Shown here in pieces: positions 331 to 57,692 of a DNA stretch of 64,000 nucleotides (within the stretch, counting starts at the first letter, position 1; every line of letters begins with the position of its first letter). Origin of the DNA: Siphonodentalium dalli (Eukaryota > Mollusca > Scaphopoda > Gadilida > Siphonodentaliidae); NCBI GenBank assembly GCA_032622095.1, contig CP136061.1, positions 9,935,287 to 9,999,286 on the forward strand. Reading direction: 5' to 3'. The translations under genes were made by a program, and so were the position numbers. The notes under the pieces were generated by a model, which was not told the DNA's origin, did no database searches, and saw nothing but the letters and a program-made list of their open reading frames with translations.

Positions 331-507
331 TACTACAGACGGGTAGGTTTCCTGACATCTGCTCAGTAAGAAGACACGCCCTTTTAAGATTCCCTGACTT
401 GTGTACGTATCCGTCAATACATGCATACTCAACATAGTCCCCGGTCTTCATATGTGAGATCGTTGTCACTTGTGTCACATTCGCCGGTGGAGTAACCAGG
501 TCGCATG
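331..507 (-). CDS. Exon 17 of mosaic gene: second CCP/sushi domain
   Basis: A complete CCP (sushi, complement control protein) module of 59 codons in one exon. Minus-strand acceptor ttttgtag precedes 507 and donor GTGAGTATT follows 331; both boundaries are phase 1, so the exon is symmetric. The four cysteines fall in CCP order: CDL near the start, YAC before a DGY, RAC, and PVC at the end. The family's usual Trp before the last Cys is absent; the stretch reads TEQMSGNLPVC. CCP modules bind proteins or glycans in secreted and surface proteins. The exon is in frame with the ShKT exon upstream (2110-2247) and its phase-1 end implies at least one more exon beyond the left edge. Domain identity is strong; membership in the single gene is inferred from phase and strand. 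Confidence 0.83.
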
Positions 508-2109
508 CTACAAAAGGAGATGCCCGGAACCAATCATAGTAATTTAGTAATGTATGGGTGTCAGTTGGATACTCCGTGAGATCAGCCAATTAAATTGTGG
601 TACATGCTTATTGATCCTGCCATGAATCGCAAAGTAGAGATCATATTCCACCAGTTCACAACCTTTTGCGTCTTCATGACCACCCCCATCATGCATGCTC
701 GAAAACAAATTGACCCCCCCCCCCTAGAAATCCCTTTATTTTCTTAACCAAATACACTTATTTGTAACATATGAATTCAATTGTCGCGGGAGTTTTGGTA
801 GAGGAGGTACCCATAACATGTGACATATTTTTGTTGACTTCAGAATCTGTCAAATGATTTCTTCGACTTTTAAAATTTGGCAAAAAGCTGGCTGCATAAT
901 TGAACTGGTTTGGTTGCATCTTCATCTTGTTATATACTAAATTGATTCTCCCATACGTTATGGAACATTGTATTGGACTGTCTATTATATATGTACGAGT
1001 AATGTTCAGGAAACAAAAGCAGATGACACATTATACAAGTACAGAAGGATTTCAAATTCTTTTGGGGGAAATGTTCAGATAATAAGTTAAACCAACGGCA
1101 TACGGTCGTTTGTTCAACTTTTCCGCTGAACATTTCATATGGGAACTCCTCAATGAGTATTTAGTGAAGAACTGTTTAATCTGAAGCTGTGATATCTCGC
1201 TTCGCTTTAAAATCGTCTTCACTGGTGAAGTTTCTAAATGAAAATCGTATTACAGGTGTACACGGTATACGTTGCTTGCTTAAATTCCACCCGACTATTT
1301 GTCGACATATCTTAATAAACAGATAATATAAATATAAACGGATGATTTTAATCTACATCTTGCGCAGCCTTGATGAGGTTGAGTTTTTATTCCGGAATCT
1401 TAAAACTGGAATCATAAAACAAAAATAATAAATAGTCCAAATTCTAACCGAGCAAGTTCCACATCGACCCGACATATAAATATAAATTATCATCATTACA
1501 ACATCAAGTCACGCCCAGAAATATTTACAACCATGTAACTTTGGATCCGGAGATTTGTACGGAAATCCCATACAACATTGGTCAATTAACCTCCCCTTTA
1601 ATGAATACGTGACGTGACCAGCTTTGAATGGGCATGTCCATGCAAATCTCCGGGGGAATTTATATCTGACGCAGTTGTCCGGGAGCCAAAGCGGGTATAC
1701 CACGGAACAGTCATAACATTTATCTGGCAGGTCGCGGCAGGTCGCGGGTGTAAATTACAAGATGTTCCTATAAATTTACTTTGGAGCATTTTTCTGGAAT
1801 TACAACAATTGACCTATATTTTTTAATACAATATAACATTTGAAAAATAAATACGCCAATATTCTGATAGAACATGTTTGATGTCAGATACATGTGCATT
1901 GTCTTAAATACTGCATCAACACACACCCAGTACTCAATACTCCATGACGAGTAATTAGTCATTTGGGAATGATCAAATAACAACGTTTGTTGATCTTCTT
2001 ATCTGAAAATTTGCAACCAACGAATATGAATCTGTCATATGCGGTTGCATCTAGCACATTTAACATATACATCGCATCCGAACATATACGTAAAATAATA
2101 TGAACTTAC
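508..2109. other. Intron of the mosaic gene, no gene seen
   Basis: AT-rich intron. The only structure I see is a short repeat at about 1067-1187 (gttcagataataa followed by a palindromic partner) that recurs at about 7620-7715. A short poly-C tract lies at 715-723. Confidence 0.6.
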
Positions 2110-2247
2110 TCTGTGGTGAACCACAAACTGCACACGATTTAGGACACATGCGTTTGGCCCACTCAGTTGACACGGTACACGATCCAGGAGTGTTGGTAAT
2201 CAACTCGGAACATGTCGTTATCTGATCCACGCACGGACCGGAAGCCA
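2110..2247 (-). CDS. Exon 16 of mosaic gene: second ShKT domain
   Basis: A 46-codon exon holding one ShKT (SXC) module. Acceptor tctttccag precedes 2247 and donor GTAAGTTC follows 2110; both ends are phase 1. Six cysteines occur in ShKT order: PCVD, TTC, GSC, RMC, KSC, AVC, with the C-x3-C-x2-C ending (CPKSCAVC) typical of the fold. ShKT modules in animal proteins are small disulphide-rich modules that accompany enzymes, lectins and matrix proteins; the name comes from a sea-anemone peptide but a toxin role is not implied here. The exon has exactly the length of the other ShKT exon (14966-15103), suggesting both descend from one duplicated module, although their sequences are well diverged. 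Confidence 0.85.
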
Positions 2248-2539
2248 CTGGAAAGAAGAACATCATAACACAGGAATACTACTGTTCAAGAACATTTTGT
2301 TCCGAACAATGTTGCCCAATAGTGTAATGCCAATTAGGTTATTAAACCATTGGACAAAATATATGACGGAAAGACGAACAACGTAATCAAGTCAACTTAT
2401 AACCGTAAGTATGTCCACTTCAATGAAATAATATATAACACAAGAGAACATGACACCATTTGAGTCCAGATCTCGGGTACTTGTGCTCGGATAACAGAAA
2501 TTCGGTACCATGGACTCGACCATGGCAGTGACTTATCTT

Positions 2540-3014
2540 ACCGGGCGCACATTGGTAGCTACTATATACCGGCGCACATTGGTAGCTACTATATACCGGG
2601 CGCACATTGGTAGCTACTATATACCGGGCGCACATTGGTAGCTACTATATACCGGACGCACATTGGTAGCTACTATATACCGGGCGCACATTGGTAGCTA
2701 CTATATACCGGGCGCACATTGGTAGCTACTATATACCGGGCGCACATTGGTAGCTACTATATACCGGGCGCACATTGGTAGCTACTATATACCGGGCGCA
2801 CATTGGTAGCTACTATATACCGGGCGCACATTGGTAGCTACTATATACCGGGCGCACATTGGTACTTGTTATATACCGGACGCGCATTGGTACTTACTAA
2901 ATACCGGACGCGCATTGGTACTTGTTATATACCGGACGCACATTGGTACTTACTACATTTATATACCGAACGCATATTTGTACTTAATACAAACCGAACG
3001 CATATTGTTACTTA
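2540..3014. repeat. 28-bp tandem array touching a splice donor
   Basis: About 17 copies of a 28-bp unit (core cgcacattggtagctac). The left and central copies are nearly identical (one is 27 bp). Toward the right the copies decay step by step: tagctac becomes tacttac or tacttgt, and cgcacattgg becomes cgcatatt. The last copy merges into the donor of the lectin exon ending at 3016. Short plus-strand ORFs across the array are artefacts of the period. Confidence 0.92.
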
Positions 3015-3015
3015 C

Positions 3016-3227
3016 TATCTCGAACTTTTCGTTTACATGCGAATTTTGCATAGCTCCTGCAGTATTGGACTCTCCATTTATGATTGTCGTGAATAAATGC
3101 GCAATCATTGCCCTCACTGTTCTGTGGTTGGTTTGTGTCCCAAAATGAGGTGTTCACGGCTATTCCGTCGTCCCATTTCCATGTTCCTTCTTCCTGTGTA
3201 TCTGTCATGCCGATCCAGTAGGCAGTC
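3016..3227 (-). CDS. Exon 15 of mosaic gene: C-terminal half of C-type lectin-like domain
   Basis: Second half of a CTLD. The acceptor at 3228-3230 (ttatag) is phase 2, matching the phase-2 donor of exon 7941-8106; joining them restores codon M in KGM-TAYWIGM. Landmarks in order: the WIG motif, WKWDDG, SFWDTNQPQ, NDCAFI, WRVQYC and FACKRK, giving cysteines 4-6 of a long-form CTLD. The calcium/sugar site is atypical: QPQ replaces the EPN or QPD triplet, and the WND signature reads KWRVQ, so classic calcium-dependent sugar binding is doubtful (inference). The donor is GTAAGTAA, phase 1; if the intron were retained, translation would stop after two further residues (SK). The exon ends exactly where the 28-bp array begins. 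Confidence 0.87.
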
Positions 3228-3986
3228 CTATAATGTTAATACATTAATTCAAAGCACATCCACACAGAGCATATCTCCAGGATACATCGCATGCAGTGGA
3301 TTTTAAAGAGGGCCAAGGCACTCGTTGGTAACTGCAAGCCTATAAATGTGTAAAAACATTCACACTAAGAAGAACATTTACGGACCTAGTATATACACAC
3401 TGTTTTTATTTTTATATTCATTACTAATAGTTCTTCAATACCAGAAGTGTGCGTGTTTAAACAATGTTGTTACGGTGAATTTTCAACAAACATCGCTAAT
3501 CGTGTAGTAAGTGCAAATATTTTAGTCTGAATGACATTGTCAATAGACCCTGGACTACGCTATCCTATTGCATGTTGAAGTGAGTGACCAATATGTATAT
3601 ACTGTTGGTGTAAAAAGTAAGACATACAACACTGATGCCCATGACACTTACACATTTTATATTGTTAATATGTAAGGCAAATCAATAAATAAGGTCGATC
3701 GCGTGCCAGTTCATATTATTAATCAGGTGTACCTTAATATACTTAAACGAATGGAAACGGGTTTCCACTTGCCTACATTAAGACGAAAACGGCGAATATA
3801 ATGTCGATAACAATGCAAACAATATTAAAAATTAACAGTGGAGGACTCAATCTCAGTGTATAACCAAACTTATGTTTGTAACCTACCAATAAATACCAAG
3901 AAGAATCAGGATAAAATTATCCAGCAGGAACCTGTTTGAAAATTGCTTCTCTCTTTACGTTTGAGTAATTTGTCAAATATATAATA
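3228..3986. other. Intron, nothing recognised
   Basis: AT-rich intronic DNA between the two CTLD exons. I see no ORF, repeat or structured RNA here. Confidence 0.5.
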
Positions 3987-4764
3987 CTAGAAGGTGACCC
4001 GACTTTGTCCGGGCTTTGACTTTGAATTGACCATTTTGAAGGTCAAGGTCAGGTGTGGTCAAACACCAACACCCCAAAAATGGTGGAAATCGGCCCAGCG
4101 GATACCGGTAAATCGGTCCAGCGGATACCGAGATACCCTATGCATCAAATTTCGTTCGTAAAAATCCGCCAGTTTAACCCGATTTGATTTCCACTCAAGT
4201 ATATAAACACGCCTCATATACACACGCTCATTAATTATCAAGTTTCAACGTAAAGATAAATTACCATTGGTGCCAGAGATATCGCCAAGACGTCTGAAAC
4301 AATCAAATGCATCGGCCGGTTAAGCGTTAACGTGATCTAACGTTATGACCTCTAACGACGTCATAGAAGTTACGCATTGTTTTTACCCTGATAGAAGATC
4401 GTACCACTTCTTCTTAATAATTGAGGCAGATAACTAAAACGGATACATACATATTATATATCGATGGAAAGAGGAAACACGAAAGATTATCACAGTGTCA
4501 TTATTATGACTGGCATTTTATTATTCGCGCGGTTTCGAATCGATTTGTAAGCACCGAACTCAAATGAAAGTCCCGTCACACAGCGTAAAAACAGATTTGA
4601 CCTCAGCACGTGAAAAGTTGACCTCGGATCTGAAAATCAATAGGCCCATGTTCGTTCCCGGGTCGAATTACGTGTCCGTACCAAGTTTAGTCGAAATCGG
4701 TCCAGCCGTGTTCGAGTCCATCGCGAACACACACACACACAGATCTTCCAAAAATATATAATAG
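3987..4764 (+). mobile_element. CTAG-bounded interspersed repeat, gacccg subfamily
   Basis: Starts actagaaggtgacccgact and ends atatataatagactag. Contains the recurring gaaggtcaaggtcaggt segment, a stretch shared with 15520-16428 and 26990-27750 (reverse orientation there), and a short (AC)n near the 3' end. It has no coding capacity. The general plan (short non-coding element, 3' microsatellite, no TIR) resembles non-autonomous Helitron-type elements of molluscs; the class is inferred. Confidence 0.6.
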
Positions 4765-5475
4765 ACTAGAAGGTGACCCGACTTCGTCCGGGCTATTCAA
4801 AATCCAAATTTCAAGTCGATTGCTCCACCCGTTTTCGAGATCTGGTCTGCGCATGCGCGAAGCTGGCGTCGCGCGGGCTCGGCGACCCGATAAAATTCGT
4901 ATCCGGGGCAAGATACATTCACATACCAAATTTCAAGTCGATAGCTCTACCCGTTTCCGAGATATATAGCCCAATGTCATTTGCGGATACATCGGCCGGT
5001 GATGAGTTAACGCGACATCGGTCTGTTAAGTGTTAACGCGATCACGTCACGATATGTTGATCGCGTAATATATTCACGCAATGATTTTCGATGGGCGAAG
5101 CACGGTCCTGCGTTCTTCCCGATAATTAAGGTAGAAACTTTAAACGTACACAGGCGTGTGATACATCATTGGAAAGATGAAAGGCCACAGATTCTAACCG
5201 TGCAAATTATATGACTGGCAAGTTATTATTCGCGCTATATCGAATCGATTTGTGAGCACCGAACTGAAATATATTAGCGCAAAACGGCGTAAAAACAGAT
5301 TTGACCTCGGCACGTGAAAAGTTGACCTCGGATCTGAAAATTAATAGGCCTGTGTTACTCGTGGCCCGAAAATACCCCCACATACCAAGTTTCATCGAAA
5401 TTGGCTCAGCCGTTTTTGAGTCCATCGATTACACACACACCACACACACACACCCTCACACTCACACACACACAC

Positions 5476-5543
<68 letters not shown>

Positions 5544-5567
5544 CTTTCAAAATATATAATAGACTAG
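4762..5567 (+). mobile_element. CTAG-bounded repeat, second in the chain
   Basis: Begins directly at the CTAG that ends the previous copy (actagaaggtgacccgac) and runs to atatataatagactag. The first part carries one 122-bp core unit (catgcgcgaagctggcgtcg). The 3' part is shared with the 15.5- and 27.0-kb copies (gacctcggcacgtgaaaagt) and ends in a long CA microsatellite. Confidence 0.6.
5431..5540. repeat. (CA)n microsatellite
   Basis: About 110 bases of ca/cac repeats with a few ccctcaca interruptions, at the 3' end of a CTAG-bounded element. Confidence 0.95.
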
Positions 5568-5999
5568 CCGATGAGCCCGACGTTGTCCGGGCTATTCAAA
5601 AACCAAATTTCAAGTCGATAGCTCTACTCAGCTCGAAATTTCAAAGTCGATAGCTCTACCCGTTTCCGAGATCTGGTCTGCGCATGCGCGAAGCTGGCGT
5701 CGCACGTGCTCGGCGACCCGATAAAATTCGTTTCCGGTGCAAGATACATTCACATACCAAATTTCAAGTCGACAGCTCCACCCGTTTCCGAGATCTCGTC
5801 TGCACATGCGCGAAGCGGGCGCCGCACGGGCTCGCCAATACGACAACTTCCATCGCATGGTCAAACTACACACACGTACCAAGTTTCGTCGCGATCGGTC
5901 GAGAATCGTAGATTTGTATAAATGACAAACATACAAACATACAAACATACAAACATACAGACAGACAGACAGAGGTCTTCAAAATATATATGAGACTAG
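5564..5999 (+). mobile_element. CTAG-bounded repeat, gagcccg subfamily
   Basis: Begins actagccgatgagcccgac, contains two core units with catgcgcgaag, then a tail with caaacatacaaacat and acagacagacag tracts, and ends aaaatatatatgagactag. Same layout as 24166-25115. No coding capacity. Confidence 0.62.
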
Positions 6000-7029
6000 C
6001 AGGTTAGCCCGCCACTGGCGTGCTTGGTCAGAAACATGACAGTGTTTTATGTTTTGTTTGTGTTTTTCAATGAGTTAGTATTGGGTTTTTTAATATTTTA
6101 CCCGATTTGACCTTGAATTTATCATTTTCAAGGTCAAGGTCATGTCGGGGTCACAATATATAATTTGTGGGTACCCGTTTGAAGGTTAAGACTGACCCGA
6201 TGAAAAATTCCCCCCGTTCCTAGGAACGACAGACATAAGAATGTTTCACACAATGCGACGTCGACGATCCCCTTGTGTTTTTACACTTATATACGAAATT
6301 TGAGCTCACCTAGGGCGGAAAAACAAACACAACACGCTCATGTCTATACAGGCCCAGACCCAGAAAAGGTATGATTTTTATTAACCTGCCCGTGGCCATT
6401 GAGCAGCCCCTGACAGAGGTTGTCCACCCTTACGAGATGGTCAATAGTCCTCGCAAAGTTAATCCCGTCGTGAACCCCATCCTCGCAAAGAGCGGACAGT
6501 CAATTAATCCCGTCGTGAACGCCATCACCAACGCGACGTACTTTTGTTTGGTATCATGTGTTGCGTTCTAAAAATAGCTAAGCACTTGTTGCCGTTTACG
6601 TTTGCGTAAATACGAAATTGTGAGTGTTGGTTTGTAACCGGGATTTATGAGAAGCAGTATGCCTATAACTACCCCCCTAAGCCCTGACCTAAGTGTCATA
6701 CATACTATAGCAATGATGTTGTAAGAGTACTATGGCATCCAATAAATCTCCCCGCATAGGAAACCACTCAATGTTCCCGTATATCTCTCTGCATATGCTA
6801 ATAACGTTGAATGGTAAACAAACGCTCTTTATAGCGATGCGTCAAAAACAAACGCTCATTAAATAATCACTTGATTAACCCACGCCGGGCCTTTGTGGTG
6901 ATTTGGGAGTGGATAAAGGGTGCTCAGAGCTTCTCCTAAACGCGACAACTACGGTGTTCGTGGGTTTTTACCCTTAGATGGGAAGTACATATATATATAC
7001 GGAAATCTCAAAATATATAGTATAGACTA
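5995..7029 (+). mobile_element. CTAG-bounded repeat, ttagcccg subfamily
   Basis: Begins actagcaggttagcccgcc and ends tatagtatagactag, where a further copy of the same subfamily starts at about 7025. Contains the block ctaggaacgacagacataag that recurs at 7250. A small ORF at 6371-6571 looks fortuitous. Confidence 0.5.
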
Positions 7030-7548
7030 GCAGGTTAGCCCGCCACTGGCGTGGTTGGTCAGAAACGTGACATTTTTAAAGTATTTTTTTTAAATTGATT
7101 TTTTTAATTAAATTTGTTTTTGTTTATGTTTTTATTTTTTTAATTTAAAATTTTTAAATTTTTTTTAAATGATTGTACCCGTCCCTAAAAGAGATATGAT
7201 TTAAGGTACATCGGGCGGAAAAACTGATCCGATGAAAATCTCCCCCGTTACTAGGAACGACAGACATAAGAATCACACAATACGCATTTTGAGTTAATTC
7301 TGCCTTTTTAATCAAGATAAATGCATTCCGCCGTTCCGGTGCGTTTTGCATACGTAGTTTCGTACGCATGGGTGACCGTTTAGCAACGCCGATGACAATA
7401 CATAAGAATCACACAACACGCATTTTCTGTTTTCCAATGAGTTAATTCTGCCTTTTTAATCAAGATAAATGCATTCCGCCGTTCCGGTGCGTTTTGCATC
7501 CGTAGTTTCGTACGCATAGGTGACCGTTTAGCAACGCCGATGACAATA
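7025..7548 (+). mobile_element. CTAG-bounded repeat with internal direct duplication
   Basis: Starts gactagcaggttagcccgcc. Two direct copies of a roughly 140-bp block (gcctttttaatcaagataaa ... gcaacgccgatgacaat) lie at about 7264-7396 and 7393-7548. I do not see a clear right end. Confidence 0.5.
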
Positions 7549-7940
7549 AAGAGCGTTAACTGGTTAACGAACCGAAATAACAGTTATTACAAGAGCAGAA
7601 TAATTCATGTTCATTAATGGGGAGTGTTCAGATAATAATGGTCGTTTGTTGAACTTACTATCTGAACATGTCGTAAGGGAACTACACATCAATGAGTATG
7701 TAGTACAGAAAAGTGTAAACTGTATTTAGATGTGTCTTAATGAAGTCTCCCACATAGACTAATTTCTGTGGATTCAGAAATGTGAGTGCTGACATATACA
7801 TTTCTCACTGAAGATCAGGAAGACTTCTGCACTTGTGTTATATAGTCTGAATAAAAGACCATTCCAATGTACACATTTATATAACTGAATAATATGGGAA
7901 ATATATTTAGTACAAAAAGATGGTTTATGTTCCAACTCAC
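7549..7940. other. Intron, short repeat only
   Basis: Holds the second copy (about 7620-7715) of the short gttcagataata repeat seen at 1067-1187; otherwise nothing recognised. Confidence 0.5.
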
Positions 7941-8106
7941 ATTCCTTTCATTATCGTGAACAACATATCAATTTCACCCTGATCTTTCGCTGTGGATACG
8001 ATGCTGTTGACTGATGCACACGTCGTCTTTGCAGTACTGTATTCCTTCTGCATGTCGTAGAATTTATAGCAAGCGCCATTGTACTTCGTCCATCCATATA
8101 GACACT
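7941..8106 (-). CDS. Exon 14 of mosaic gene: N-terminal half of C-type lectin-like domain
   Basis: First half of the CTLD completed by 3016-3227. Acceptor tcaatcgcag (phase 1) precedes 8106; donor GTGAGTTGG (phase 2) follows 7941. The product reads ECLYGWTKYNGACYKFYD at its start, the standard C-x-x-GW...C-Y-x-F opening of long-form CTLDs, then TAKTTCAS, the alpha-1 helix with the second conserved Cys. Then come a segment corresponding to strand beta-2/helix 2 and MLFTIMKGM leading into TAYWIG of the next exon. The intron to that exon is 4.7 kb and is filled by the CTAG-bounded repeat chain. Confidence 0.85.
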
Positions 8107-8308
8107 CTGCGATTGATAAGATTATATGAACTATATGTGTATACACAGATAGATATACTTGGGTGAGAAAATCTTGAACTCTTTACAGAAATTGTCCCAA
8201 CAGTCAACCTATTTTATGAAAGCACAATGAACACATTTTCCAATAGTTTCATTTTTGATGTGCAATCCCCTGGTCTTGTAATATTATATCACAACATGAC
8301 GACCACTA

Positions 8309-8672
8309 ACCCCCGCGTGACGCTCAGTGCGACTGAAGGGGTCACTATCACAAAAAGGTGCTGAAGGGTACAAATATTTTAATGATGTGCTGAAGGGTAC
8401 ACAAGTTTTTGAAATATCGTTCTAAATGAGGTTTAGTGTTCGTGCCTGCCATGATTTCTGTTAAAGAATAATTGTTTGCGTTTCAATGGAAATTAAAATG
8501 AACATAAAAAAAAAACTATTAATGTGCGCCAGATTTTCGGGAATACAAAAACAGCCTTAGTGACGAGCACAAACCCTGTGCACCCTTCAGCACATTTAAA
8601 AAACCTGTGTATCCTTCGGAACTATTTTGGTGAGAGTGACCCCTTCAGCCTCAGTGCCCAGTGCGGCATGAT
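8309..8672. mobile_element. Foldback/inverted-repeat element
   Basis: The left arm (gaaggggtcactatcac, then two gtgctgaagggta blocks) is matched by an inverted right arm (acccttcagcac, gagtgaccccttcag). The arms are imperfect and about 90 bases long. The 103-codon plus ORF (8524-8835) starts inside it and is probably accidental. Confidence 0.6.
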
Positions 8673-9659
8673 GCGTCGCACGCCTTACCAGATGAGTCAT
8701 GTAGTAACCGGGAAAACATGGACACTGAGTGGCGTCCTTGGTCCGACCAAACATAAATGTACACAAATGGAGGTGACGTTTTTACATGATTTTGACAAGG
8801 GAAGGGGGTTGTATTTGTTTTTTTTATTTTACTAACTACTCAATTCTACAAGTAAATTAAAATATGCAGTCTCGTTTCTTTGTCATGTATGTATAGTATG
8901 TTCAGGTGTATGAGGATAAATCTAATTTATTTTAGTTTTATACGTCTCAAAACATTTCATATCAACATTAAACTGTTGATTGTATTTATTATAATATATC
9001 GCTGTTTCACATCGTCTCATATTTAAGAAATGTGTGTTGATGGAAGAAGAACGATCCACCAGAGCGTTATTTTCACTGTGAAATAACTACACAGAAACCA
9101 CAGACCCATTCTCTCTTTAAGCAACTGACCAAATTGCCCAGATACATGCATCATATTATCCGTCCTAGCTTTGTGTGGATCACACCCACCATGAGTCGAG
9201 CTACCTTCACTATTGGAGTTTTAGCCTGTTTGTTGAACATATATAAGTACATGCATGTTCTTTAAAGCTTTAAACCCACATACCTTCCGAATATATGTAG
9301 CTATTAGTGTTACTTTATGGTCCCATTTCATATACGTCATATGGCAATATAACGCCTATATATGATCTTCATAACTTGAATATGGCGTTGTCTGTAGCTA
9401 AGACTTGTTTAAATATGTTGTCATGTTTAACACATGGGATTTTTAAAGTCTTAATTGAAAAAATGCACGAGTGAGTGAACAACGTATTTTTGGCCATTCT
9501 TGGCACACACTCACCGGTATTATAATTATATCTTGTGTTTAATATATGCACCCCAACCCTGATTGTGGTAAAGTGTGGTAGAGACGCTACGTGAGACTTT
9601 TACATTCTGGCCCAAGCGAACTTGTGTACTATGACCAGGTTCATTAAATATCAACTCAC
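8673..9659. other. Intron, nothing recognised
   Basis: AT-rich intronic DNA between the CCP and CTLD exons, without ORFs, repeats or RNA genes that I can support. Confidence 0.5.
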
Positions 9660-9842
9660 CTTGGCATGCGTAACTGCCCACTGACGCCCATGTTCCATCG
9701 GTAGTGCATTGTGAAGTTAGATTGGTGAGGTTGTCGTCTTTGCAAGCAAAAGTAACGACATCTCCGACATTGTAAGGCGCTTGACCGCTCACCTGTGTAC
9801 CATCAAGCGGGACGACCGGTGGTGCGCATGACATAGAGGCAA
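9660..9842 (-). CDS. Exon 13 of mosaic gene: first CCP/sushi domain
   Basis: A 61-codon symmetric phase-1 exon. Acceptor catccattttag precedes 9842; donor GTGAGTTGA follows 9660. The module reads SCAPPVVPLDGT (Cys1), then a YNVGDVVTFAC strand (Cys2), TSQC (Cys3), GTWASVGSYAC (conserved Trp and Cys4). All hallmark CCP positions are present, unlike the CCP at 331-507, which lacks the Trp. It sits between a ShKT exon and the CTLD. Confidence 0.88.
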
Positions 9843-10221
9843 CTAAAATGGATATGCAGAAATTAAATAAAAAGCACACGCATACATGTATTATACAACA
9901 TTTCCGATGACCACCGCCAACATTGTCCAACAATGACATCCTTACGACAGTGATAATTACGATGACGATGATGATGATGCTGATGACGAAACACCCGATA
10001 CTACCACCACAGTGAGACAGGGATGTGAGTGAAGCGGTGGGGTGCGGGAGTGTCTCACACCAACTGTGCTCAACATGTTCAACACTTGGAACGTTCATGC
10101 CCGGGACGCCATCAGTTGGAATTTCATATTAAAATATGTTATATGATATATATAGTTTTATTTTTCAACTGGAATTTACCGTGCAATGTGTTGGTTGTAT
10201 AGAACTCGGACTATTTACCGA
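9843..10221. other. Intron, simple-sequence patches
   Basis: The minus-strand open frame continuing upstream from the CCP exon (to about 10098) is intronic; it contains a gat-rich stretch at 9961-9990 and no domain. Confidence 0.5.
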
Positions 10222-10540
10222 TGCCGCGGGGGTCTGAAATTTTTTTCAGGCACGTATGCCGATTTTTCCCTTTCCACACTTGTTGGGACCCACCCACCCC
10301 CGCGTCCAATTTTGTTTCCGTTTTCGGCAGTTTTTTCCCCGACCATTTTTGGACACCCACCCTACTTTTAACACTAAAATAGAGAATTGCGTAGGGGAAA
10401 TTCACTGTAAACAGCTGTATTTGAATTTATGTGCATACTATTTGTCATGGATGTTAACATTGACATGTAAATAGGAACGAGTCATTTTGGGGTCATTCGG
10501 CAAAAAAACATGGCTGCCAGCGGCCATCTTGGATTTCAAA
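10222..10540. repeat. Dispersed repeat, inverted partner of 43455-43790
   Basis: Contains the blocks ggcacgtatgccg, cacccacc, aattcactgtaaacagctgt and gccagcggccatcttgga, all found in reverse complement at 43455-43790. The two copies are tens of per cent diverged in the C-rich part and closer elsewhere. Confidence 0.75.
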
Positions 10541-10706
10541 ATTCAATCCATTAGCATGGGCTACTGTATGTTTGATAATCATGAACTTTTTCATTTTGAT
10601 ACTGACATTCTAAGGTGTTTTAAGCCAAACGCATTGCAAAAACAGTCAAAAAGACTTGCAGGAAAACACAATTTGAGTTGGCTATAGTCCGGGTGATAGT
10701 TCGCAG

Positions 10707-10938
10707 GCAGGACAATGGTCACAAAAACTCTGACACGTGGTCGCGCTTCGTCCAATCACAATCAACATACACATAGAGGATTTACTTTTATTTATGGAAA
10801 TTTCTCAACTGCAAACTCGACTGTAAAGTCAGATATAAGTTGTGAAGAACGTCTGACATTGTTTCCAAATTCTGTCGCATGCAAATTGTTATTTACTTAT
10901 ACATGTATAGTTGTTTTTGTTTACTCAAGTGAAGTTTG
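10707..10938. repeat. Dispersed repeat, copy 2 (pairs with 3-264)
   Basis: Direct-orientation match to 3-264, with a deletion of about 20 bases around the acatagagga segment. Immediately to its right (about 10955-11035) is a segment with tttgcgctccaaaataaac that has a diverged inverted counterpart at about 28010-28160. Confidence 0.7.
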
Positions 10939-11312: not shown

Positions 11313-11359
11313 TATTATGTCATAATGTAGCGTAGGTAATTTCGAAACCATTTTTTTTA

Positions 11360-11728
11360 CCCTGTGCCAATGCATTCTCTTATATATGCGAGTCGACCAT
11401 AGGTCGCCTCGCATATATAAGAGAATGCATTGGCCTAACAATTTTTATAATTTTGTTTTAAATAAATGTTTCTTACAATTTTTAGGACATAAAATAAAAA
11501 ACATCCATTACCCTGCAGGGAGCCCCACACATATATAGACGCATATAGAAGAGTGTCATCTGCTCATGTTTGTCTGGGGCTCTGTATGGGTGAAATTATA
11601 AAATTGTTAAAGAATACAAGAAAAAAATGTTTAAAATTGAAAAAAATTGTTAGACTAATGCATTCTCTTATATATGCGAGGCGACCTATGGTCGACTCGC
11701 ATATATAAGAGAATGCATTGGCACAGGG
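11360..11728. mobile_element. Double-hairpin MITE, short form
   Basis: Starts ccctgtgccaatgcattctc and ends with its reverse complement. Each end is itself a palindrome of about 68 bases centred on gagtcgaccataggtcgcctc, so the element has four copies of the arm ccaatgcattctcttatata. The middle holds a decayed remnant (gcagggagccccacacatat). Lacks the TTAACCC flanks of the longer copies. Very similar to 34596-34947. Confidence 0.85.
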
Positions 11729-12065
11729 TGAACAAATCCTGATTTACGATTGGATTTTGATATGGCGGGTCACATATATTAAGGTCTGAACGCAAGCCTT
11801 GAACGGACGGTTAATTGTGAAATGTGTCATAATGTTATATTTTACCCCACCCTTACTCGCGCCTTTTGATTGGTCGAGATACATGGTATAGTGTTATGCT
11901 TATTCCAGCACACTACTATACCATACTCGCAGGCAAAAGACAATGAACAGAGGCAACACTCTCGAGAACAGATATACAGACATGTGTTCACCAATTTACC
12001 AATGCGTGTCCAAATGAAATAAAAACATAAACGTGAATATATTTTTCACAGGAACGACGTCAACT

Positions 12066-13200: not shown

Positions 13201-13372
13201 TGTGTTAATGCATTCTCTTTTATATGCGAGTCTGCCTATATAGGAAGCCCTGCATATTTGTCTAACAATATTTACCTTCACCTTGTAAGCCAGTGCATTC
13301 TCTTACACATTTATATGCGAGGCTCCCTATTGGAGACTCTCATATACACGAGAAACCACTGGCACAGGATCG
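13201..13372. mobile_element. Diverged relative of the double-hairpin MITE
   Basis: Carries atgcattctctt..atatgcgag arms but with different hairpin centres (gagtctgcctatataggaag and gaggctccctattggagact). Sits directly beside the intact copy 13410-13860. Confidence 0.65.
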
Positions 13373-13409
13373 TTAATGCTGCACAAACGCAGCTCCCGTC
13401 ATGAGATGG

Positions 13410-13860
13410 TTAACCCTTTACCCAACAAACCGGCCAAAAACGCCCAAATAAAGCTTCAACAGCCTAAAATATCTTCGGTCTGTCTCCATAACACCATACA
13501 AATATGGATATCATTGGAACCGGTTTATTGACCACATTGTGGTGGTTACAGTTATGCCCTGTGCCAATGCATTCTCTTATATATGCGAGTCGACCAAAGG
13601 TCGCCTCGCACATATAAGAGAATGCATTGGCCTAAAAAATAGGTTTTTTAAACACTTTTTACCATTTTTTCTTACATTCTTTAACAATTTTATAATTTTT
13701 TCTTACATTATAATATTTTTCTACATTCTTTGACAATTTTATCATTTTTAATATGTGTTAAGCCAATGCATTCTCTTATATATGCGAGGCGACCTATGGT
13801 CGACTCGCATATATACGAGAATGCATTGGCACAGGGCCGTTCTGTTGGATAAAGGGTTAA
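13410..13860. mobile_element. TTAA-flanked double-hairpin MITE (piggyBac-like)
   Basis: Begins TTAACCCTTTACCCAACAAA and ends ttggataaagggttaa. Inside are a gccaaataaagc-type stem segment, then ccctgtgccaatgcattctc and the two opposed 68-base hairpins. TTAA at both outer ends with CCC-starting termini fits a non-autonomous piggyBac-superfamily element: target TTAA and CCC starts are family knowledge, the assignment is inference. Copies: 20141-20537 (reverse), 29404-29803, 62241-62530 (one end only). Confidence 0.78.
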
Positions 13861-14965
13861 TGAAAAGTAAAAACCAGACAACAATTGAGAGTCCACAAAT
13901 GTGCAGTACAAGCTCATCTTGATTGAATCATATACCGCGTCGATGTGAACCGATCAACGACCGCATTCGTGTTGACCATCGCCCGGTATAATCTACCTGG
14001 ACTGCATATATATAAACCCAGCTGGTGAATACGAGATCTCGTGTTTCTCAGCCTATAATAATAGTTGAGTTACCGTTGCTGTTTCGAGACATGACAATTT
14101 TGCTTAGAATTAGGGAGTTTGTTGGTCTTATTGTCAAAAAGCTTGTATGTTAAGAGGGAGGTAAAGTGGTAACATTTGAATGGATAATTCAGTGTTGCAT
14201 TTCGGGAAAAGATTTTTCTCAATATTTCCAAAGCGCCGAAAACCGCTTCGCGTCTTATTTGAAAGTGTGAACATATGTTTATTGACAACGCGAATTGGAT
14301 TTTTTATTTTATTTTGTGACATTTGAATTTCGATGGAAATATTTGTAAACAATCATGTACTGTTGACCTACTTTCTAATAATATCCAAACTGGGTCAAAA
14401 ATCTAAATTCTGATCTACGTTGTCACTGTAAGCATTCAATCTTTCCAGTAAGATATGGTATGGTCAACTACGATTTGTAACGTTATTACACGTTAACAAG
14501 TAACATTATCATGCACGCCTAACCTCATCCACATGATACACACCAATATCTACGAAGTACGCAGTTTCCAGGGATACACACTAAAAATCCCTACACTCCG
14601 CACAAATACTAGAAGCGTAATATCTTTATATGCCAGGTACGATCGTATGTGTAACCTGTGGCGTGTGTTACTATGCTAATGGTATTTAGATGCACATGCC
14701 AGAATACTCATATAATTTTACGACGGGAATGCTACACGTGTATATATATCGGACAACGTCTAGGGAAACATGTAAATAATAGTCGGATGGTGTGAACAAG
14801 TGATAATGCGATCACAATGCGACCAGGGATACGCTTAAATGTCTTCAATCAAATGAAGATGTTACCGCTCAGGCAAATCTATGCCTGTACAGCGTTGGTC
14901 GCTTACTTGGTTATGACATGATACATATGAATATTATTTTGTTATGGATTTGAAGTTACTCTCAC
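13861..14965. other. Intron, nothing recognised
   Basis: AT-rich, no repeat or gene that I can support between the MITE and the ShKT exon. Confidence 0.5.
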
Positions 14966-15103
14966 CTTTAACGTTGTTGGTTGCCACAGCAGCACATATC
15001 CCACACGTCTGGCGACATAACCTTTTTCCGTTTAATGTTTGACAATATTTCGGGTATGCTGCGAAGTCAGCTGCGCACGTTTCGTCGATGTCGTAACATT
15101 CCT
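14966..15103 (-). CDS. Exon 12 of mosaic gene: first ShKT domain
   Basis: Symmetric phase-1 exon of 46 codons. Acceptor ctgttgttgcag precedes 15103; donor GTGAGAGT follows 14966. The product starts EECYDIDETC and ends RLCRQTCGICAA, with YPKYC between: six cysteines in ShKT order, with the conserved Asp after the first Cys and the C-x3-C-x2-C ending. It connects the kringle exon (20797-20915, phase-1 end) to the CCP exon (9660-9842). The second ShKT exon at 2110-2247 has the same length. Confidence 0.87.
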
Positions 15104-18351: not shown

Positions 18352-18936
18352 TTAATTGATATGTGCCCCCATGTACCATCTTTACACAGTACAACCCCTG
18401 GTGCTTATGCACTTCAACTTCCTTTATTGGTTGTTCGATAAGGACTGGGTGTACGATAAGTTTCTTTTTTTCTGGTGCATGCTAGGGATTCGGTTTTTGT
18501 ACCGGATTGGATTGGGGCACAAGTTATTGGTAACTTATTGACACTCCTTTCCAACAACAAATTGACAATTAACAACAAGAGTTAGGCTTTCTGTCCGCAA
18601 TACATATAATACAAAGGTACACAAACAACACTTGATTAAAATATGATGATAATGTGGGGGTACACGTTAAGATGTCAAAGTGTATTATTTGCATCAGAAT
18701 GGGGTGTGATTGTGGGCCTTCGATCGATGATGTGATATGTTGTTTCCCAATTTATGTATTTCTATTTCTATTCGCTAGGTTTGGTATATTATTAATCATT
18801 AAATCGTTGTGTTTCTATAATATACTTTTGAGCAACAATGAATAACTTGCAATGTATTTGCTCAGTCTCATCGGTGGAGCCAAAAAGTATATTTCCAATG
18901 GTCAAGTGTAGTATTAGATATACTAGTTTAGATATA
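18352..18936. other. Spacer between two LINE remnants
   Basis: No recognised feature; a few short plus-strand ORFs without domains. Confidence 0.45.
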
Positions 18937-20102: not shown

Positions 20103-20140
20103 ATATTATTTCCAGTTCTGAAACCAACACAAACCGTTAA

Positions 20141-20537: not shown

Positions 20538-20796
20538 TTACAAATTTGTGTGTGGTGACCCAAACAAAGCTAGGACAAGAAGTGACTGCACTCCACTGAT
20601 ACCGAGCCGAAATTATTAATAAAATAACAACTTTTCATTGTATTTTGCCTCGATGAAAACTCTGCCTATTCATAATATACATACATTATTCATCGTGCTA
20701 ATACAAGAAAACGCGCGAAGGTTATCATTCGTTTCTGTAATGAACAGTCCCTTCCAGTATATGTTGTCATGATTACATATGCATGTATATACGAAC

Positions 20797-20915
20797 CTTT
20801 TCCACACACGTCACAGAAGTCACTCTTGCAATCGGTAACATTGACAAAACACCACGGTCGCAGGCCTTGTCCCGGTCTTCTACATGCATTTCCTTCTAGT
20901 CCGCGGTGTCCATCG
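20797..20915 (-). CDS. Exon 11 of mosaic gene: C-terminal half of kringle domain
   Basis: Acceptor actcgtcttgcag (phase 2) precedes 20915; donor GTTCGT (phase 1) follows 20797. The product reads DGHRGLEGNACRRPGQGL, then RPWCFVNVTDC and KSDFCDVCG: the kringle hallmarks GLxxNxCRxP and PWCF followed by the last cysteines. It completes the half in 28826-28958; the split codon is restored as GGC. Kringles are triple-loop binding modules of secreted proteins. This one has two Cys more than the usual six (NCK in the first half and an additional one in DCKSDFCDVC). The donor has GTTCGT rather than GTRAGT. Confidence 0.8.
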
Positions 20916-28825: not shown

Positions 28826-28958
28826 CCATCAGTAAACGGATTGCGCTTACAATTCTTCGCCTCATACCAAGGCAGACATTGTTCGAAGTCCCAGGTGTAA
28901 TTTACTGAACCTCGATATGAGTCTCCCTTGTCAGCAACTTCGTAGCAGTACTCGTCAG
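28826..28958 (-). CDS. Exon 10 of mosaic gene: N-terminal half of kringle domain
   Basis: Acceptor gtcttgtttcacag (phase 1) precedes 28958; donor GTAAGTTG (phase 2) follows 28826. The product begins DEYCYEVADKGDSYRGSV, matching the kringle opening C-x-x-G-x-x-YRG. Then come FEQCLPWYEAK (the Cys-x-x-Trp step) and NCKRNPFTDG. The intron to the second half (20797-20915) is about 7.9 kb and contains two CTAG-bounded elements. Upstream, the nearest exon is the last CUB exon, 16.7 kb away; phases agree (1 to 1), but a gene break in that interval cannot be excluded. Confidence 0.8.
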
Positions 28959-45705: not shown

Positions 45706-45827
45706 CTGGTAGTATTTCCGCTGTGGCGTTGAATCCTTTACCCAAACCGATACCATCGGTCCTCAAACTTAACATCAACGTCTCGAAATTTGTGATAATA
45801 GATCCATTCAGTGAGTTGCCGCAGTAC
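45706..45827 (-). CDS. Exon 9 of mosaic gene: C-terminal part of CUB domain
   Basis: Acceptor tgtcatatttcag (phase 2) precedes 45827; donor GTGAGATAT (phase 1) follows 45706. The joined codon AGG gives RYCGNSLNGSIITNF, the CUB segment with the fourth cysteine (YCG). The conserved hydrophobic strands follow: FETLMLSLRTDG and KGFNATAEI, corresponding to the usual LxIxFxSD...GFxAxY. The exon therefore closes the CUB begun at 49577-49677 and 48798-48919. CUB modules mediate protein and glycan binding in complement-type and developmental proteins. No ORF longer than the exon marks it, so simple ORF searches miss it. Confidence 0.87.
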
Positions 45828-48797: not shown

Positions 48798-48919
48798 CTC
48801 TGCCCTCCTTGTCCTATGTAACTATCTCTAACTTCTACTGTGTCATAGCATCCTCCTGATGGGGCGGTCTCGATATCAAAATCTTGGAACACCAGTTTGA
48901 TTTTCGAGCCAGTTGGAAC
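48798..48919 (-). CDS. Exon 8 of mosaic gene: middle part of CUB domain
   Basis: Acceptor ttcacatttgcag (phase 0) precedes 48919; donor GTTCGT (phase 2) follows 48798. The product begins VPTGSKIKLVFQDFDIE, a textbook CUB strand (PxGxxIxLxFxDFDIE), followed by GGCYDTVEVRDSY with the third cysteine and the D-x-V-E-V-R-D signature. Acidic residues at these positions often form a calcium site in CUB domains; whether that applies here is not established. The donor GTTCGT is unusual, as in the kringle exon. Confidence 0.86.
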
Positions 48920-49576: not shown

Positions 49577-49677
49577 CTTTACAAACCAGTGACATGTCTG
49601 AAAGTTAGAAGGGTTGTTCGGAGACTGCAAAGTAACAATTCTTTTTGTCTTGCTGAGCTCGAATCTGCCACCACAAC
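49577..49677 (-). CDS. Exon 7 of mosaic gene: N-terminal part of CUB domain
   Basis: Found by phase logic: the gene needed a phase 1-to-0 exon before 48919. Acceptor cttcattttgttcaag precedes 49677 and donor GTAAACG follows 49577; length 101 fits exactly. The product reads CGGRFELSKTKRIVTLQS then PNNPSNFQTCHWFVK, i.e. the CUB opening CGG, the SPNxPxNY-like turn and the C-x-W step, running straight into VPTGSKI of the next exon. It supplies cysteines 1 and 2, so the CUB has the full set of four. Too short to show as an ORF. Confidence 0.85.
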
Positions 49678-51151: not shown

Positions 51152-51289
51152 CATAAGTGATAGGGTGATAGTAACACGTGCTGAGGGTGACTGTGGAACC
51201 GCCTATCCACATCGGGGCTATGCCCGTCGAAACAATAGTTGATGGATCAGAGTTCACGAATCGAAAATACTGATTCTCGAAGAGCATAT
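51152..51289 (-). CDS. Exon 6 of mosaic gene: C-terminal part of ApeC domain
   Basis: Acceptor tttcttctacgcag (phase 1) precedes 51289; donor GTAAGTACG (phase 1) follows 51152. The product reads DMLFENQYFRFVNSD ... GIAPMWIGGS, then TLSTCYYHPIT. This fits the last part of ApeC, where a short strand follows the CQxVxGM motif and a final C-Y-Y closes the domain. The Asp at the start is formed by the split codon G|AT. It supplies the last ApeC cysteine. Next exon in the gene is the CUB opening at 49577-49677. Confidence 0.82.
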
Positions 51290-52216: not shown

Positions 52217-52432
52217 CTTTAATCGTTTGACAACCAGGAATTCCGTATATGGGTGCCTTATATAAAATAAATGGCGAAGATGTTGGGAACAATACAGGGT
52301 CCTCGTCGGCGCTGTCTTGACGACAACAATATCTTAACACCGTGGTTGTCGCGGTGATGTCCGCATCCGGTGCCGCGCCACTTGTAACAGCGCCATAATT
52401 GTCCGTGAACTTGATACTGCCATCATCAAAAC
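52217..52432 (-). CDS. Exon 5 of mosaic gene: central part of ApeC domain
   Basis: Acceptor gcttttaccacag (phase 1) precedes 52432; donor GTTTGT (phase 1) follows 52217. The split codon G|GT makes CPEGFDDGSIKFTD across the junction, the ApeC signature CPxGFxxGxIxxxD. Then follow LRYCCRQDSADEDPVLFP, TSSPFILYK and GCQTIK, corresponding to the CCR-DG...PI-LPTxxPFxL...CQxV core. ApeC (apextrin C-terminal) domains occur in invertebrate proteins; some amphioxus members bind bacterial peptidoglycan, which is known for the family and not shown here. Confidence 0.9.
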
Positions 52433-54735: not shown

Positions 54736-55005
54736 CTTCGGGACAATCTCCTCCCATTCGCTGTATGCAATACGCCCCGCGTGGCCACGTGACCCCTGTA
54801 TCTGCACCATTGGTTTGTGTGCAGTACTCCATCGTTATATTGCCATCCATACTGGTAACCGCCACATTGAAATGACCACTCGTTATTAGGTCAGCGTCTG
54901 CCCCTTGTTTGATTGACCCGGTTTGCATCCCAGGTGGACACGTCGGTCCGGTTTTAGGAAACGCGAAACTACCACCGGGCCAGGCTCGCTGTTTAAGACT
55001 GTCAT
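54736..55005 (-). CDS. Exon 4 of mosaic gene: N-terminal part of ApeC domain
   Basis: Acceptor gttcccgttgcag (phase 1) precedes 55005; donor GTAATATC (phase 1) follows 54736; 90 codons. The product reads RAWPGGSFAFPKTGPTCP, MQTGSIKQGADADL, then MEYCTQTNG and WPRGAYCIQRMGGDCPEG, i.e. the ApeC opening WPxGxYxxPxxxxGCPxxxxxGxxxQDxED and the WPxGxYCIxxxxxCPxG step. Cysteines 1-4 of the domain are here. Together with 52217-52432 and 51152-51289 this gives a complete ApeC of about 208 residues with eight cysteines. The minus ORF continues upstream to 55129 only as intron. Confidence 0.9.
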
Positions 55006-56705
55006 CTGCAACGGGAACAAAACTCAACATGCATTGTCTGGTGCTTTTGTTGGATAGCCACGATAAAACATGTCGTTTGCGCAATTTAAGGGCAGACCCA
55101 CGTTTTGCCAAAATGGAATGGTGTTTCAAAATAGGATTTCCTCAAAATATGTCAGGAATTTCTTTTTGAAATATGGTACAAGCGATTATTTGTAACACAA
55201 TACTAAAAAACCGCCAACACGTTAGAAATTATAGTACCATACCCCCATTTGCTATACTTTTATACATATATTAAGAACTTCTGCAATATAGATTTTCTCA
55301 AAAGTGTACTTCATATAATTATCAATGATATCTTATCTGAAGATCACTGAGAGACAACTACTTTTTCCTTTAGTATGTCAACTGCCCATCATTAATTTCC
55401 TATTGTAGATAATTTGCACATGAGGCCTGTTTACCAATTGACAATTGGGCTGAGATAAGTTCACGATATATGTCATGGATTATAACCAATTTCAAGCTGA
55501 CAATCTTATCTCTTACCCATGATATATTTCCAGTTGTTGTGTCCTCCTTGAGTGCCATGCTGCCTATGTACACTTGTTACCATTGGGATGGTCTATTTGT
55601 TGCTGTTTATTCTTTAGTGTCATATATTGGGGTATAATGTAATATCATGGCATTGAATATTTAATTGGTCATTACGACACAACTACAGCCCAGTCTCATA
55701 GAGCCAAGATAATAAGTTATTCGGTTATTGTTGTGTTGTATGCAGTTACTAATTGTTCTAGTAGTTTTTGAAATCTAAAAGACCAATAAAGAAAATGTTG
55801 ATTTAAATATCTCAAATGTACTAAACAAATTATTCTAACAGTTCTTGAAATCTAAAAGAACAAAAACAAACTAATTTAAATTTCTCAAATGTATTGAAAC
55901 AATTGCTCAAGTTGTTCTTGGTACCTAAATTTAGAATAAAGACAAATATACTTTCGAAGCCTCAAATGCACAAAAATGCATTGTTTTCGGTCTTCTCTTG
56001 GTACTATGTCAGATTCATAATAAAGATTATATATCTTAAATTCAACATTTTGCGCCGAATATAAACAGATACTATTTGTGTTGAAACTGTCTTGCAAATT
56101 TGCCTAGATTTGTGACGTTGTAGAAAAGCGACATGGCACTCGAAATAAGGAATTTTGAGACAATGTGTTCCAACAATCTAAGGGAATGCCTGGCTATTAC
56201 GTAGTGACATAACGAGAAACAATGACTATGTGCATACTTTCAGAATGGAGCAAACACTGTGACAATCCAATCTAATGACAAGAACGACAATCCACAAAGA
56301 GCCGTTGTTCAGCTATCAGCAAAGTGACCTAACCTACCTGCCAAGATCACCTGATCGTCACACCATGACATACTGCCTTGAGATGGTACATAATTATAAG
56401 CAGCCGACGGCCTGGAGTCAACACCTTTTTAAACTTCCGACTTGCGAAATCAGAACTGTTTTATATGGACCGGACGTCCAGGATCCTCATACATATAGGG
56501 TATTACAATGTGGGATTCCACATGTTAGAAATTTTAGGATGAAATAGTTTGAAAGAAAATGCAGAGTGGTGTATTTCCTTGTTATGTTATAGAGAAGGCC
56601 AGAGTGATGTATGCTATGTTTGCACTATTATTTTCTTAACTAAAATACATTAGTTTAAGTTAATCGTTATTGTGATTGAAGCTGCCCAAACGGATACACA
56701 ACGCG
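55006..56705. other. Intron between EGF and ApeC, no supported gene
   Basis: Around 55740-56050 there are diverged tandem blocks with gttcttgaaatctaaaagaa. A 90-codon plus ORF (56275-56547) has no recognisable domain. Confidence 0.45.
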
Positions 56706-56961
56706 AAATCCCCTGTAGGGCCCCAACCATTCAATAGAAATCCCCTGTAGGGCCCCAACCATTCAATAGAAATCCCCCGTAGGGCCCCAACCATTCAATA
56801 GAAATCCCCTGTAGGGCCCCAACCATTCAATAGAAATCCCCCGTAGGGCCCCAACCATTCAATAGAAATCCCCTGTAGGGCCCCAACCATACAATAGAAA
56901 TCCCCCGTAGGGCCCCAACCATTCAATAGAAATCCCCCGTAGGGCCCCAACCATTCAATAG
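56706..56961. repeat. 32-bp tandem repeat, 8 copies
   Basis: Unit aaatcccctgtagggcccca accattcaatag. The only regular variable site is cccct/ccccc, reading T,T,C,T,C,T,C,C from left to right; one copy has accatacaat. Minus-strand open frames (NGWGPTG) are artefacts. Confidence 0.95.
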
Positions 56962-57557
56962 ATGTTCGTAAAATAAACACGATCCCTTTCATTCGTGACA
57001 AACAACCAACTCATCCACTTTATGAGTTCCAGATATATATATCTTTATTTATCCTCCATATATAATGAAGATATAAGTATATAAATACATAACACAAGTA
57101 ATGCAAATACATATAAGAAACATCAAGGAACATATTTACAAGGGTTAACGGAAGTATTTACTCTCTGGAGTCCAGGCCCGTTTATGGGGAAGAACATTGG
57201 ACACAAACGTACACAACCCTGGATATATACCTCCAGTACTTTTGTGTAGTCAATCATGACCTCCAGCTACCCAGACTCAAAGTCCTATGTAATTTTAGTA
57301 GCATGTGTGAGACAGTGGGGACCATATATACGGGCGTGGTCTCCAGAGAGGAAGAACTTCCCAAAATGGACACAAAACGCTACATTGTGTTACAATCGAA
57401 ACGGTAATTCAGTAAATGTCGTATATAATATATTTTATGTTTATATTTTACCTATAGTTATATTTGTGTGTCATAATATTTCGTGCTGTGTCGCGTGTAA
57501 GATTTTAATTTTAGGAGAGGTCGGAGTTTCAGAAGCATATCTAAATAAATTCCTCAC
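56962..57557. other. Intron, nothing recognised
   Basis: The plus ORF 57256-57702 runs antisense through the EGF exon and has no domain. Confidence 0.45.
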
Positions 57558-57692
57558 CTCCATTATACACCTCTGTACAATTGCTCGCAGGATCGAGTCC
57601 AGTTGGACAGACACATTGACATACTCCGTCATAAGGGGTGATATACCCGTCGTTGACACAAGTCACGCCATCCATATCGGAACAAGAAATGG
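57558..57692 (-). CDS. Exon 3 of mosaic gene: EGF-like module
   Basis: Acceptor tgtgtatcatccatag (phase 1) precedes 57692; donor GTGAGGAAT (phase 1) follows 57558; 45 codons. The product starts AISCSDMDGVTCVNDGY and continues VCQCVCPTGLDP then SNCTEVYNG. Six cysteines with the C-x-C-x-C-P-x-G step resemble an EGF-like module; the first loop is short and the spacing (VCQCVC) is not that of a classical EGF, so a related small disulphide module is possible. It feeds in frame into ApeC exon 54736-55005. Confidence 0.7.

Follow-up and report, generated by a model that had tools for sequence, protein, structure and literature searches.

Among described proteins, the set of modules discussed here is closest to that of P-vulgata_14 from the limpet Patella vulgata, a 1113-residue translated transcript that has a stop but no start, is predicted to be secreted, and is listed with peptidase_M12A, ApeC, CUB, kringle, two sushi, C-type lectin-like and ShKT domains (Kang et al. 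2020, PMC7333891, Table 2). The protein was seen by mass spectrometry only in bulk primary adhesive foot mucus, in a study that counted a protein for a mucus type only if it was present in all three limpets, and the specific in situ signals reported there belong to P-vulgata_1, 3, 4, 7 and 11, not to 14 (PMC7333891). The locus analyzed here lies in 64,000 nucleotides of DNA (hereafter the window; C1:9935287-9999286) from the scaphopod Siphonodentalium dalli, whose genome assembly comprises 2.23 Gb in nine contigs. Fifteen exons in the window are probably the middle and 3′ part of one gene for a secreted, multi-module metalloprotease of the astacin family (M12A), and the exons recognized for it extend over about 86 kb. 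The module order of its product is likely to be M12A, EGF-like, ApeC, CUB, kringle, ShKT, sushi, C-type lectin-like domain (CTLD), ShKT and sushi, perhaps followed by a further sushi and CTLD.

BMP1/tolloid proteases have an astacin core with EGF and CUB modules behind it, and we know of no tolloid with ApeC, kringle, CTLD, sushi or ShKT modules. The protease exons of the scaphopod gene find their best PDB match in Tolloid-like 1, but the CUB module is single here, unlike in the BMP1/tolloid astacins. Astacins combined with ShKT and other modules are known, also from molluscs, and their expression is reported mainly for barrier epithelia or the digestive tract; in contrast to the gene described here, neither ApeC nor apextrin occurs in the main text of that report (PMC9848320). 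ApeC is found together with CUB in amphioxus ACP5 (PMC8361754), and with fucolectin, two C-type lectin domains and CUB in an amphioxus clade (PMC12373286), but in these proteins CUB precedes ApeC, and the available text of the two papers makes no mention of a protease, kringle or ShKT. The modules of mollusc ACP groups 8 and 9 are left unnamed in the text that defines them, where kringle, CUB and CCP do not occur (PMC9585378), and the portions available of two further papers (PMC12321717 and PMC4581086) do not join apextrin and kringle in one protein. A literature search pairing the phrase "ApeC domain" with "astacin" returned no paper.

All of the modules listed for P-vulgata_14 (M12A, ApeC, CUB, kringle, CTLD, two sushi and ShKT, in one chain) are present in the scaphopod gene model on one strand and in fitting phases. 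About 54-55 cysteines can be calculated for the limpet protein from its printed 4.9%, versus 52 in 789 residues of the scaphopod model. The listed domains (PMC7333891, Table 2) include one ShKT, whereas we recognize two, the first by its cysteine pattern only, and they include no second sushi-CTLD block, which in the scaphopod has arisen by tandem duplication and may be used by the gene. If the published list runs from N to C terminus, and if the first ShKT escaped detection there as it escapes Pfam here, the module order of the two is the same. The initial annotation of the window had regarded ApeC proteins as mostly simple and this combination as one not previously known; neither view holds for molluscs, and the module set is already in print (PMC7333891). 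The gene is real and unusual but it is not new.

Exon and module structure within the window

The gene model was rebuilt from the sequence by identifying minus-strand exons with AG/GT borders and matching phases, which were then joined. Splice sites and frames across the 64-kb window give 15 exons with first base 57692 and last base 331, which add up to 2370 coding bases or 790 codons, the split first codon included, and contain no stop, with AG at 15 of 15 acceptors and GT at 15 of 15 donors. The model is composed of EGF-like, ApeC, CUB, kringle, ShKT, sushi, CTLD, ShKT and sushi modules in that order, and all eight introns that join modules are in phase 1. Six further introns fall within modules and also have matched phases: 1 and 1 in ApeC, 0 and 2 in CUB, 2 in the kringle, and 2 in the CTLD. 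This reconstruction reproduces the frame, the 790 codons and the uniform phase-1 borders proposed in the initial annotation. The exons are richer in GC than the window as a whole (47.6% versus 38.2%), and 14 of the 15 are clear of the self-repeated DNA that makes up about 16.7 kb of the window; the exception is CTLD exon b, 3 bases of which fall in a repeat interval next to a 28-base tandem array. This array contains about 15 copies of its unit at window 2539-2955.

When the joined protein was searched against Pfam, a complete ApeC domain was found (profile 1-208 of 208, E 8.8e-25), together with Lectin_C for the CTLD (E 5.5e-17), CUB (profile 1-109 of 110, E 6e-15), Kringle (E 2.4e-9) and Sushi (E 5.2e-9, two stretches), so the families that had been proposed for this check were recovered with the exception of ShK. 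The modules are well beyond chance. Those that are split over several exons score far higher when joined than exon by exon, and the exon joints within them are therefore supported; for the kringle, the E value falls from 0.0023 for exon a to 5.7e-12 for the joined piece alone.

For the two ShKT modules the support differs. Both exons are 138 bases long, in phase 1-1, and show the six-cysteine ShKT spacing, a pattern that is found nowhere else in the six frames of the window and in none of 15 shuffled sequences. The pattern was derived after both exons had been seen, and the assignment of the first module depends on it. The second module scores 20.6 bits on its own open reading frame (ORF), just below the Pfam cut-off of 20.9, and ShK is absent from the matches of the joined protein. 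Neither the first ShKT exon nor the EGF-like exon has a Pfam match, either as a single ORF or within the joined protein. PDB searches gave best E values of only 0.098 for ApeC and 0.73 for the EGF-like exon, a search for ApeC relatives in bacterial genomes returned 49 pattern matches of which none was confirmed, and an Rfam search gave no match. One additional ORF (1754-1512) with eight cysteines was considered as a module and rejected, having no Pfam match at E 10 and no usable candidate exon.

Both ends of the model are open, with phase 1 at the beginning of the first exon and at the end of the last. The 15 exons show neither a start nor a signal peptide nor a stop, and no candidate signal-peptide first exon was found at 57.7-64 kb. 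The model given in the initial annotation is confirmed for its 15 exons but is not the whole gene. Its ApeC is preceded by an EGF-like exon, and the exons described in the next section, an astacin core on the 5′ side and a duplicated sushi-CTLD block on the 3′ side, had been missed.

Astacin exons upstream and a duplicated block downstream

The flanking DNA examined comprised 100 kb on the 5′ side of the gene and 60 kb on its 3′ side, with window coordinates extended past 64000 and below 1. Three exons on the same strand upstream splice in one frame and encode part of an astacin core (Table 1). The middle exon carries HELGHAVGLDHEEHSPLRDDW, the astacin zinc signature, in which the consensus HExxHxxGxxHE is present 5′ of the window as HELGHAVGLDHE, and the exon that follows contains a Met-turn with tyrosine (SxMHY) in the form YDMTSDMHYG. 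HExxHxxGxxHE occurs once on both strands of the 42 kb between 57.7 and 100 kb and in none of 60 shuffles. Joined, the three exons match the Pfam Astacin profile over positions 57-121 of 189 (29.5 bits, E 7.1e-7), above the cut-off of 22.5. In the PDB, the piece made of two exons matches Tolloid-like 1 best (E 0.0088); the alignment covers the zinc signature and, in a stretch that by itself falls short of significance, pairs the Met-turn with RYDFDSIMHYA. A matrixin was also considered for the zinc exon, but Pfam favors Astacin (7.1e-7 versus 0.0027) and an astacin-type Met-turn exon follows. Because these astacin-core exons lie 5′ of the model, the array from ApeC to sushi most likely forms the tail of such a protease.

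On the 3′ side, the segment at about 2661-10938 recurs at about -7532 to 264, in pieces that are 77-96% identical, the three longest being 90-96% identical. The duplicate contains a sushi exon starting at -928 (92% identical), a CTLD exon a at -2689 to -2854 (98.8% identical) and a CTLD exon b at -6956 to -7167, in which 212 of 212 bases are identical. Since these duplicated exons keep their frames and splice sites, the gene could run on as sushi-CTLD beyond its last exon in the window, and perhaps does so, although the duplicate may be an assembly artefact. No terminal exon was recognized among six downstream candidates. An array similar to the 28-base tandem array near CTLD exon b is also present in the duplicate copy. 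Farther downstream, about 45.6-48.6 kb below the window on C1 (L023), open frames with CWTCLGNHFARDC motifs stand beside a long frame; we take these motifs to be zinc-knuckle-like, as in retroelements of the long terminal repeat type.

Table 1 Exons of the putative astacin-ApeC gene and the end of the tandem duplicate, in window coordinates (values above 64000 lie upstream of the window on the gene's strand)
Feature	Position	Strand	Phase	Features and Pfam match
Astacin exon	79223-79160	-	2-0	
Astacin zinc-signature exon	74758-74674	-	0-1	
Astacin Met-turn exon	66567-66491	-	1-0	
EGF-like exon	57558..57692	-	1-1	six Cys, spacing 7-12-1-1-9; no Pfam match
ApeC exon a	54736..55005	-	1-1	single-ORF ApeC E 2.4e-10
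ApeC exon b	52217..52432	-	1-1	single-ORF ApeC E 7e-8
ApeC exon c	51152..51289	-	1-1	completes ApeC (8 Cys)
CUB exon a	49577..49677	-	1-0	
CUB exon b	48798..48919	-	0-2	ORF CUB E 6.2e-5
CUB exon c	45706..45827	-	2-1	completes CUB
Kringle exon a	28826..28958	-	1-2	ORF Kringle E 0.0023, under cut-off
Kringle exon b	20797..20915	-	2-1	completes kringle (8 Cys)
ShKT module 1	14966..15103	-	1-1	Cys spacing 6-10-8-3-2; no Pfam match
Sushi/CCP module 1	9660..9842	-	1-1	ORF Sushi E 9.3e-5
CTLD exon a	7941..8106	-	1-2	
CTLD exon b	3016..3227	-	2-1	completes CTLD
ShKT module 2	2110..2247	-	1-1	Cys spacing 6-10-10-3-2; ORF ShK E 6.7e-4
Sushi/CCP module 2	331..507	-	1-1	ORF Sushi E 1.1e-5; last recognized exon in the window
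Tandem duplicate end	1..264	.		spacing about 10.8 kb, source about 2661-10938; extends below the window with sushi and CTLD exons

One gene or two, and related loci in the genome

Several observations weigh against the reading as a multi-module astacin-ApeC protease. The astacin domain is incomplete as modeled: no upstream exon was located for profile positions 1-56 and about 125-189, the exon or exons that would join the Met-turn exon to the EGF-like exon were not found, and with two exons the Pfam score is 21.8 bits, slightly below the cut-off of 22.5. Neither a first exon with a signal peptide nor a terminal exon with a stop was located. The astacin exons were chosen by eye from candidate lists, which entails some selection; their phases, order and rising score nevertheless agree. 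The link to P-vulgata_14 rests on a domain list and not on sequence identity, and the 16.7-kb intron between CUB and kringle, read from genomic sequence, is unproven. None of 62 astacin matches in the genome lies within 10 Mb of any of 68 ApeC matches, so that no second astacin-ApeC pair was seen, an absence that says little because the search overlooks split domains and missed this gene's own astacin exons. Finally, the ApeC stretch contains no exact D-x-E-D, in a family defined by eight conserved cysteines and three DXED motifs (PMC9585378). Those motifs have been termed relatively conserved (PMC8361754), and in BgACP1 all three are changed, yet binding to bacteria and peptidoglycan has been reported (PMC9585378). 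Eight cysteines, matching the ACP definition, were counted in the stretch, a count made without alignment to other ACPs.

The long CUB-kringle intron also admits an unlikely arrangement in which two neighbors give the appearance of a fusion: an astacin-EGF-ApeC-CUB gene, which would occupy 57.7-45.7 kb and DNA farther upstream, and an independent kringle-ShKT-sushi-CTLD gene, which would cover 29-0.3 kb and continue downstream. This intron is the longest of the model (16747 bases), the exon joints are drawn from genomic sequence rather than from cDNA, and phase-1 modules fit anywhere, so that phase-1 borders cannot separate fusion from neighborhood. A new first exon was sought between 28.96 and 45.7 kb, the interval named in the initial annotation, and the search, of unknown power, gave no signal-peptide candidate on the gene's strand and two on the other strand, against a shuffle mean of 0.1 (n=20). 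Among 120 ORFs of at least 36 residues at 28.8-45.9 kb no unknown module stood out, in a scan that recovered one of the two known exons there (kringle exon a at E 0.0023, with CUB exon c missed); seven other families, each matched by a single ORF at E 0.027-0.082, were taken as chance. Three-frame translations of 57.6-64, 37.3-45.8 and 28.8-37.4 kb gave no Pfam family; CUB exon c and kringle exon a lie within these stretches and were overlooked too. Comparison also speaks against two neighbors: the limpet transcript has both halves in one chain (PMC7333891), and two other loci of the S. dalli genome, one near C8:54.7 Mb and one near C8:51.2 Mb, have a kringle match 3′ of ApeC on the same strand, the second of them under the cut-off, among at least ten kringle matches genome-wide.

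These loci belong to a large ApeC family, with 68 exon matches listed genome-wide, many of them on C8, C4, C7 and C2 and some with internal stops. Eight ApeC loci (L001-L008, two of them overlapping) were compared, with about 1.5 kb on either side of the match, and at three of the eight an EGF-like exon that is 64-68% identical lies directly 5′ of ApeC. At one of the three, C1:260.1 Mb, a further 8 kb show the order ApeC exon c, CUB exon a, CUB exon b, as in the window. The number of kringle matches is a lower bound, as the window's own split kringle was missed. The match at C8:54.75 Mb is above the cut-off, lies 41-45 kb 3′ of ApeC behind another EGF-ApeC pair, and resembles kringle exon b (49% over 41 residues). 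The match at C8:51.17 Mb lies 12-14 kb 3′ of ApeC exons and is 34% identical to kringle exon b over 67 residues, in an alignment that passes the exon end through stops. The single-family searches revealed no other locus with EGF, ApeC, CUB and kringle together, but in combination the loci suggest a small family that may share the same plan. At C1:260109337-260109631 (L055), CUB exon a is followed by three extra end-like pieces (NYNDNQHCHWFFKV twice and NYNNNQHCHWFFKV once), which may have arisen by local repetition of the end of the exon.

A family of this size, with stops in some of its ApeC matches and a locus partly duplicated in tandem, raises the question of whether the gene is a decayed or unexpressed copy. 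We regard this as very improbable: all 15 exons are open and their phases agree, and the duplicated exons retain frame and splice sites, including a CTLD exon b without a single difference in 212 bases. The proposal that one gene was assembled by phase-1 exon shuffling is supported because the limpet transcript has the same module set and because other loci keep EGF-ApeC (three), ApeC-CUB (one) and ApeC-kringle (two). We infer that the exons are expressed as a single transcript in S. dalli.

Repeats and reverse transcriptase pieces also occur in the window. Within the CUB-kringle intron a direct repeat pair of 452 bases (31956-32407 and 33308-33759) is 98.9% identical and 1.35 kb apart. Reverse transcriptase pieces occupy 17803-20105 on the minus strand, in the intron between kringle exon b and the first ShKT exon, with RVT_1 matches at 19343-19756 (E 5e-11) and 19731-20105 (E 3.4e-7); the long frames adjoining them have no Pfam match. 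Another repeat, several hundred bases long and interspersed, may be a short mobile element; it is found at 11350-11736, 13262-13864, 20137-20538, 29401-30450, 34592-34952 and 62240-62527, and is partly self-complementary (11352-11736 is 76% identical to its own reverse complement).

Predicted interactions of the modules and proposed function

The residues at known binding sites were compared with those of characterized modules. In the CUB module, the glutamate of DIE, the aspartate of CYDTVEV and the aspartate of RTDG line up with the TSG-6 CUB, at positions that we take to be calcium-binding residues, and the module is accordingly predicted by its conserved residues to be of the calcium-binding type. 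The kringle carries eight cysteines, two more than the usual six. In plasminogen kringle 4, the aspartates of PDADKGPW serve lysine binding; PGQGLRPW is aligned at this place in the scaphopod kringle and both aspartates are missing, so lysine binding appears unlikely. Calcium-dependent sugar-binding CTLDs have EPN or QPD together with WND, where the CTLD here has QPQ and WRV; in the PDB it scores highest against the yolk sac IgY receptor, PLA2R and LY75. The kringle, CTLD and sushi would be modules for protein contact rather than for classical lysine or sugar binding. The ShKT modules are without the Lys-Tyr dyad of the channel-blocking ShK toxin and have GK and EW at the dyad places. The dyad is also absent from the ShKT of the limpet protein (PMC7333891).

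The product would most likely be a targeted mucus or matrix protease, with a tail that anchors it to its substrate and an astacin domain that cleaves at that site; secretion and protease activity are both predicted. Within the tail, ApeC would be the best candidate for contact with bacterial peptidoglycan. Six short-form ApeC proteins (amphioxus ACP1, 2, 3 and 5, oyster CgACP1 and snail BgACP1) bind peptidoglycan or bacteria (PMC9585378, PMC8361754). Microbe recognition by the scaphopod protein is plausible.

A lesser but real possibility is that the same single gene serves adhesion or matrix building, as in foot glue or extracellular matrix, with ApeC acting as a generic glycan- or protein-binding module. 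Such a role is in keeping with a CTLD in which the usual residues for calcium and sugar are missing and with a kringle that lacks its lysine-site aspartates. It also agrees with the foot-mucus location of P-vulgata_14 and the use of CUB, sushi and kringle modules in matrix and in protease regulation (PMC7333891). On the other side stand the binding of the six short-form proteins to peptidoglycan or bacteria (PMC9585378, PMC8361754) and the preference of the limpet authors themselves for an antibacterial role in mucus (PMC7333891). This role is the main alternative to the targeted protease.

A more far-reaching version, which we consider doubtful, is a one-chain complement-like defense enzyme that would unite on one polypeptide a microbe sensor (ApeC and CTLD), assembly modules (CUB, kringle and sushi) and a metalloprotease. 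Peptidoglycan binding would activate or position the astacin domain in mucus, and the family would be growing by gene copies and by internal sushi-CTLD duplication. If this were true, one chain would do what vertebrates split between a lectin and a separate CUB-sushi protease.

No known principle is overturned by these findings. The domain list of one limpet mucus protein now has a counterpart in a second species, a gene model in which the exon borders are placed, and the gene illustrates mosaic growth by exon shuffling and tandem duplication. It also leads to a testable claim, that of a metalloprotease guided by peptidoglycan and acting in mucus.

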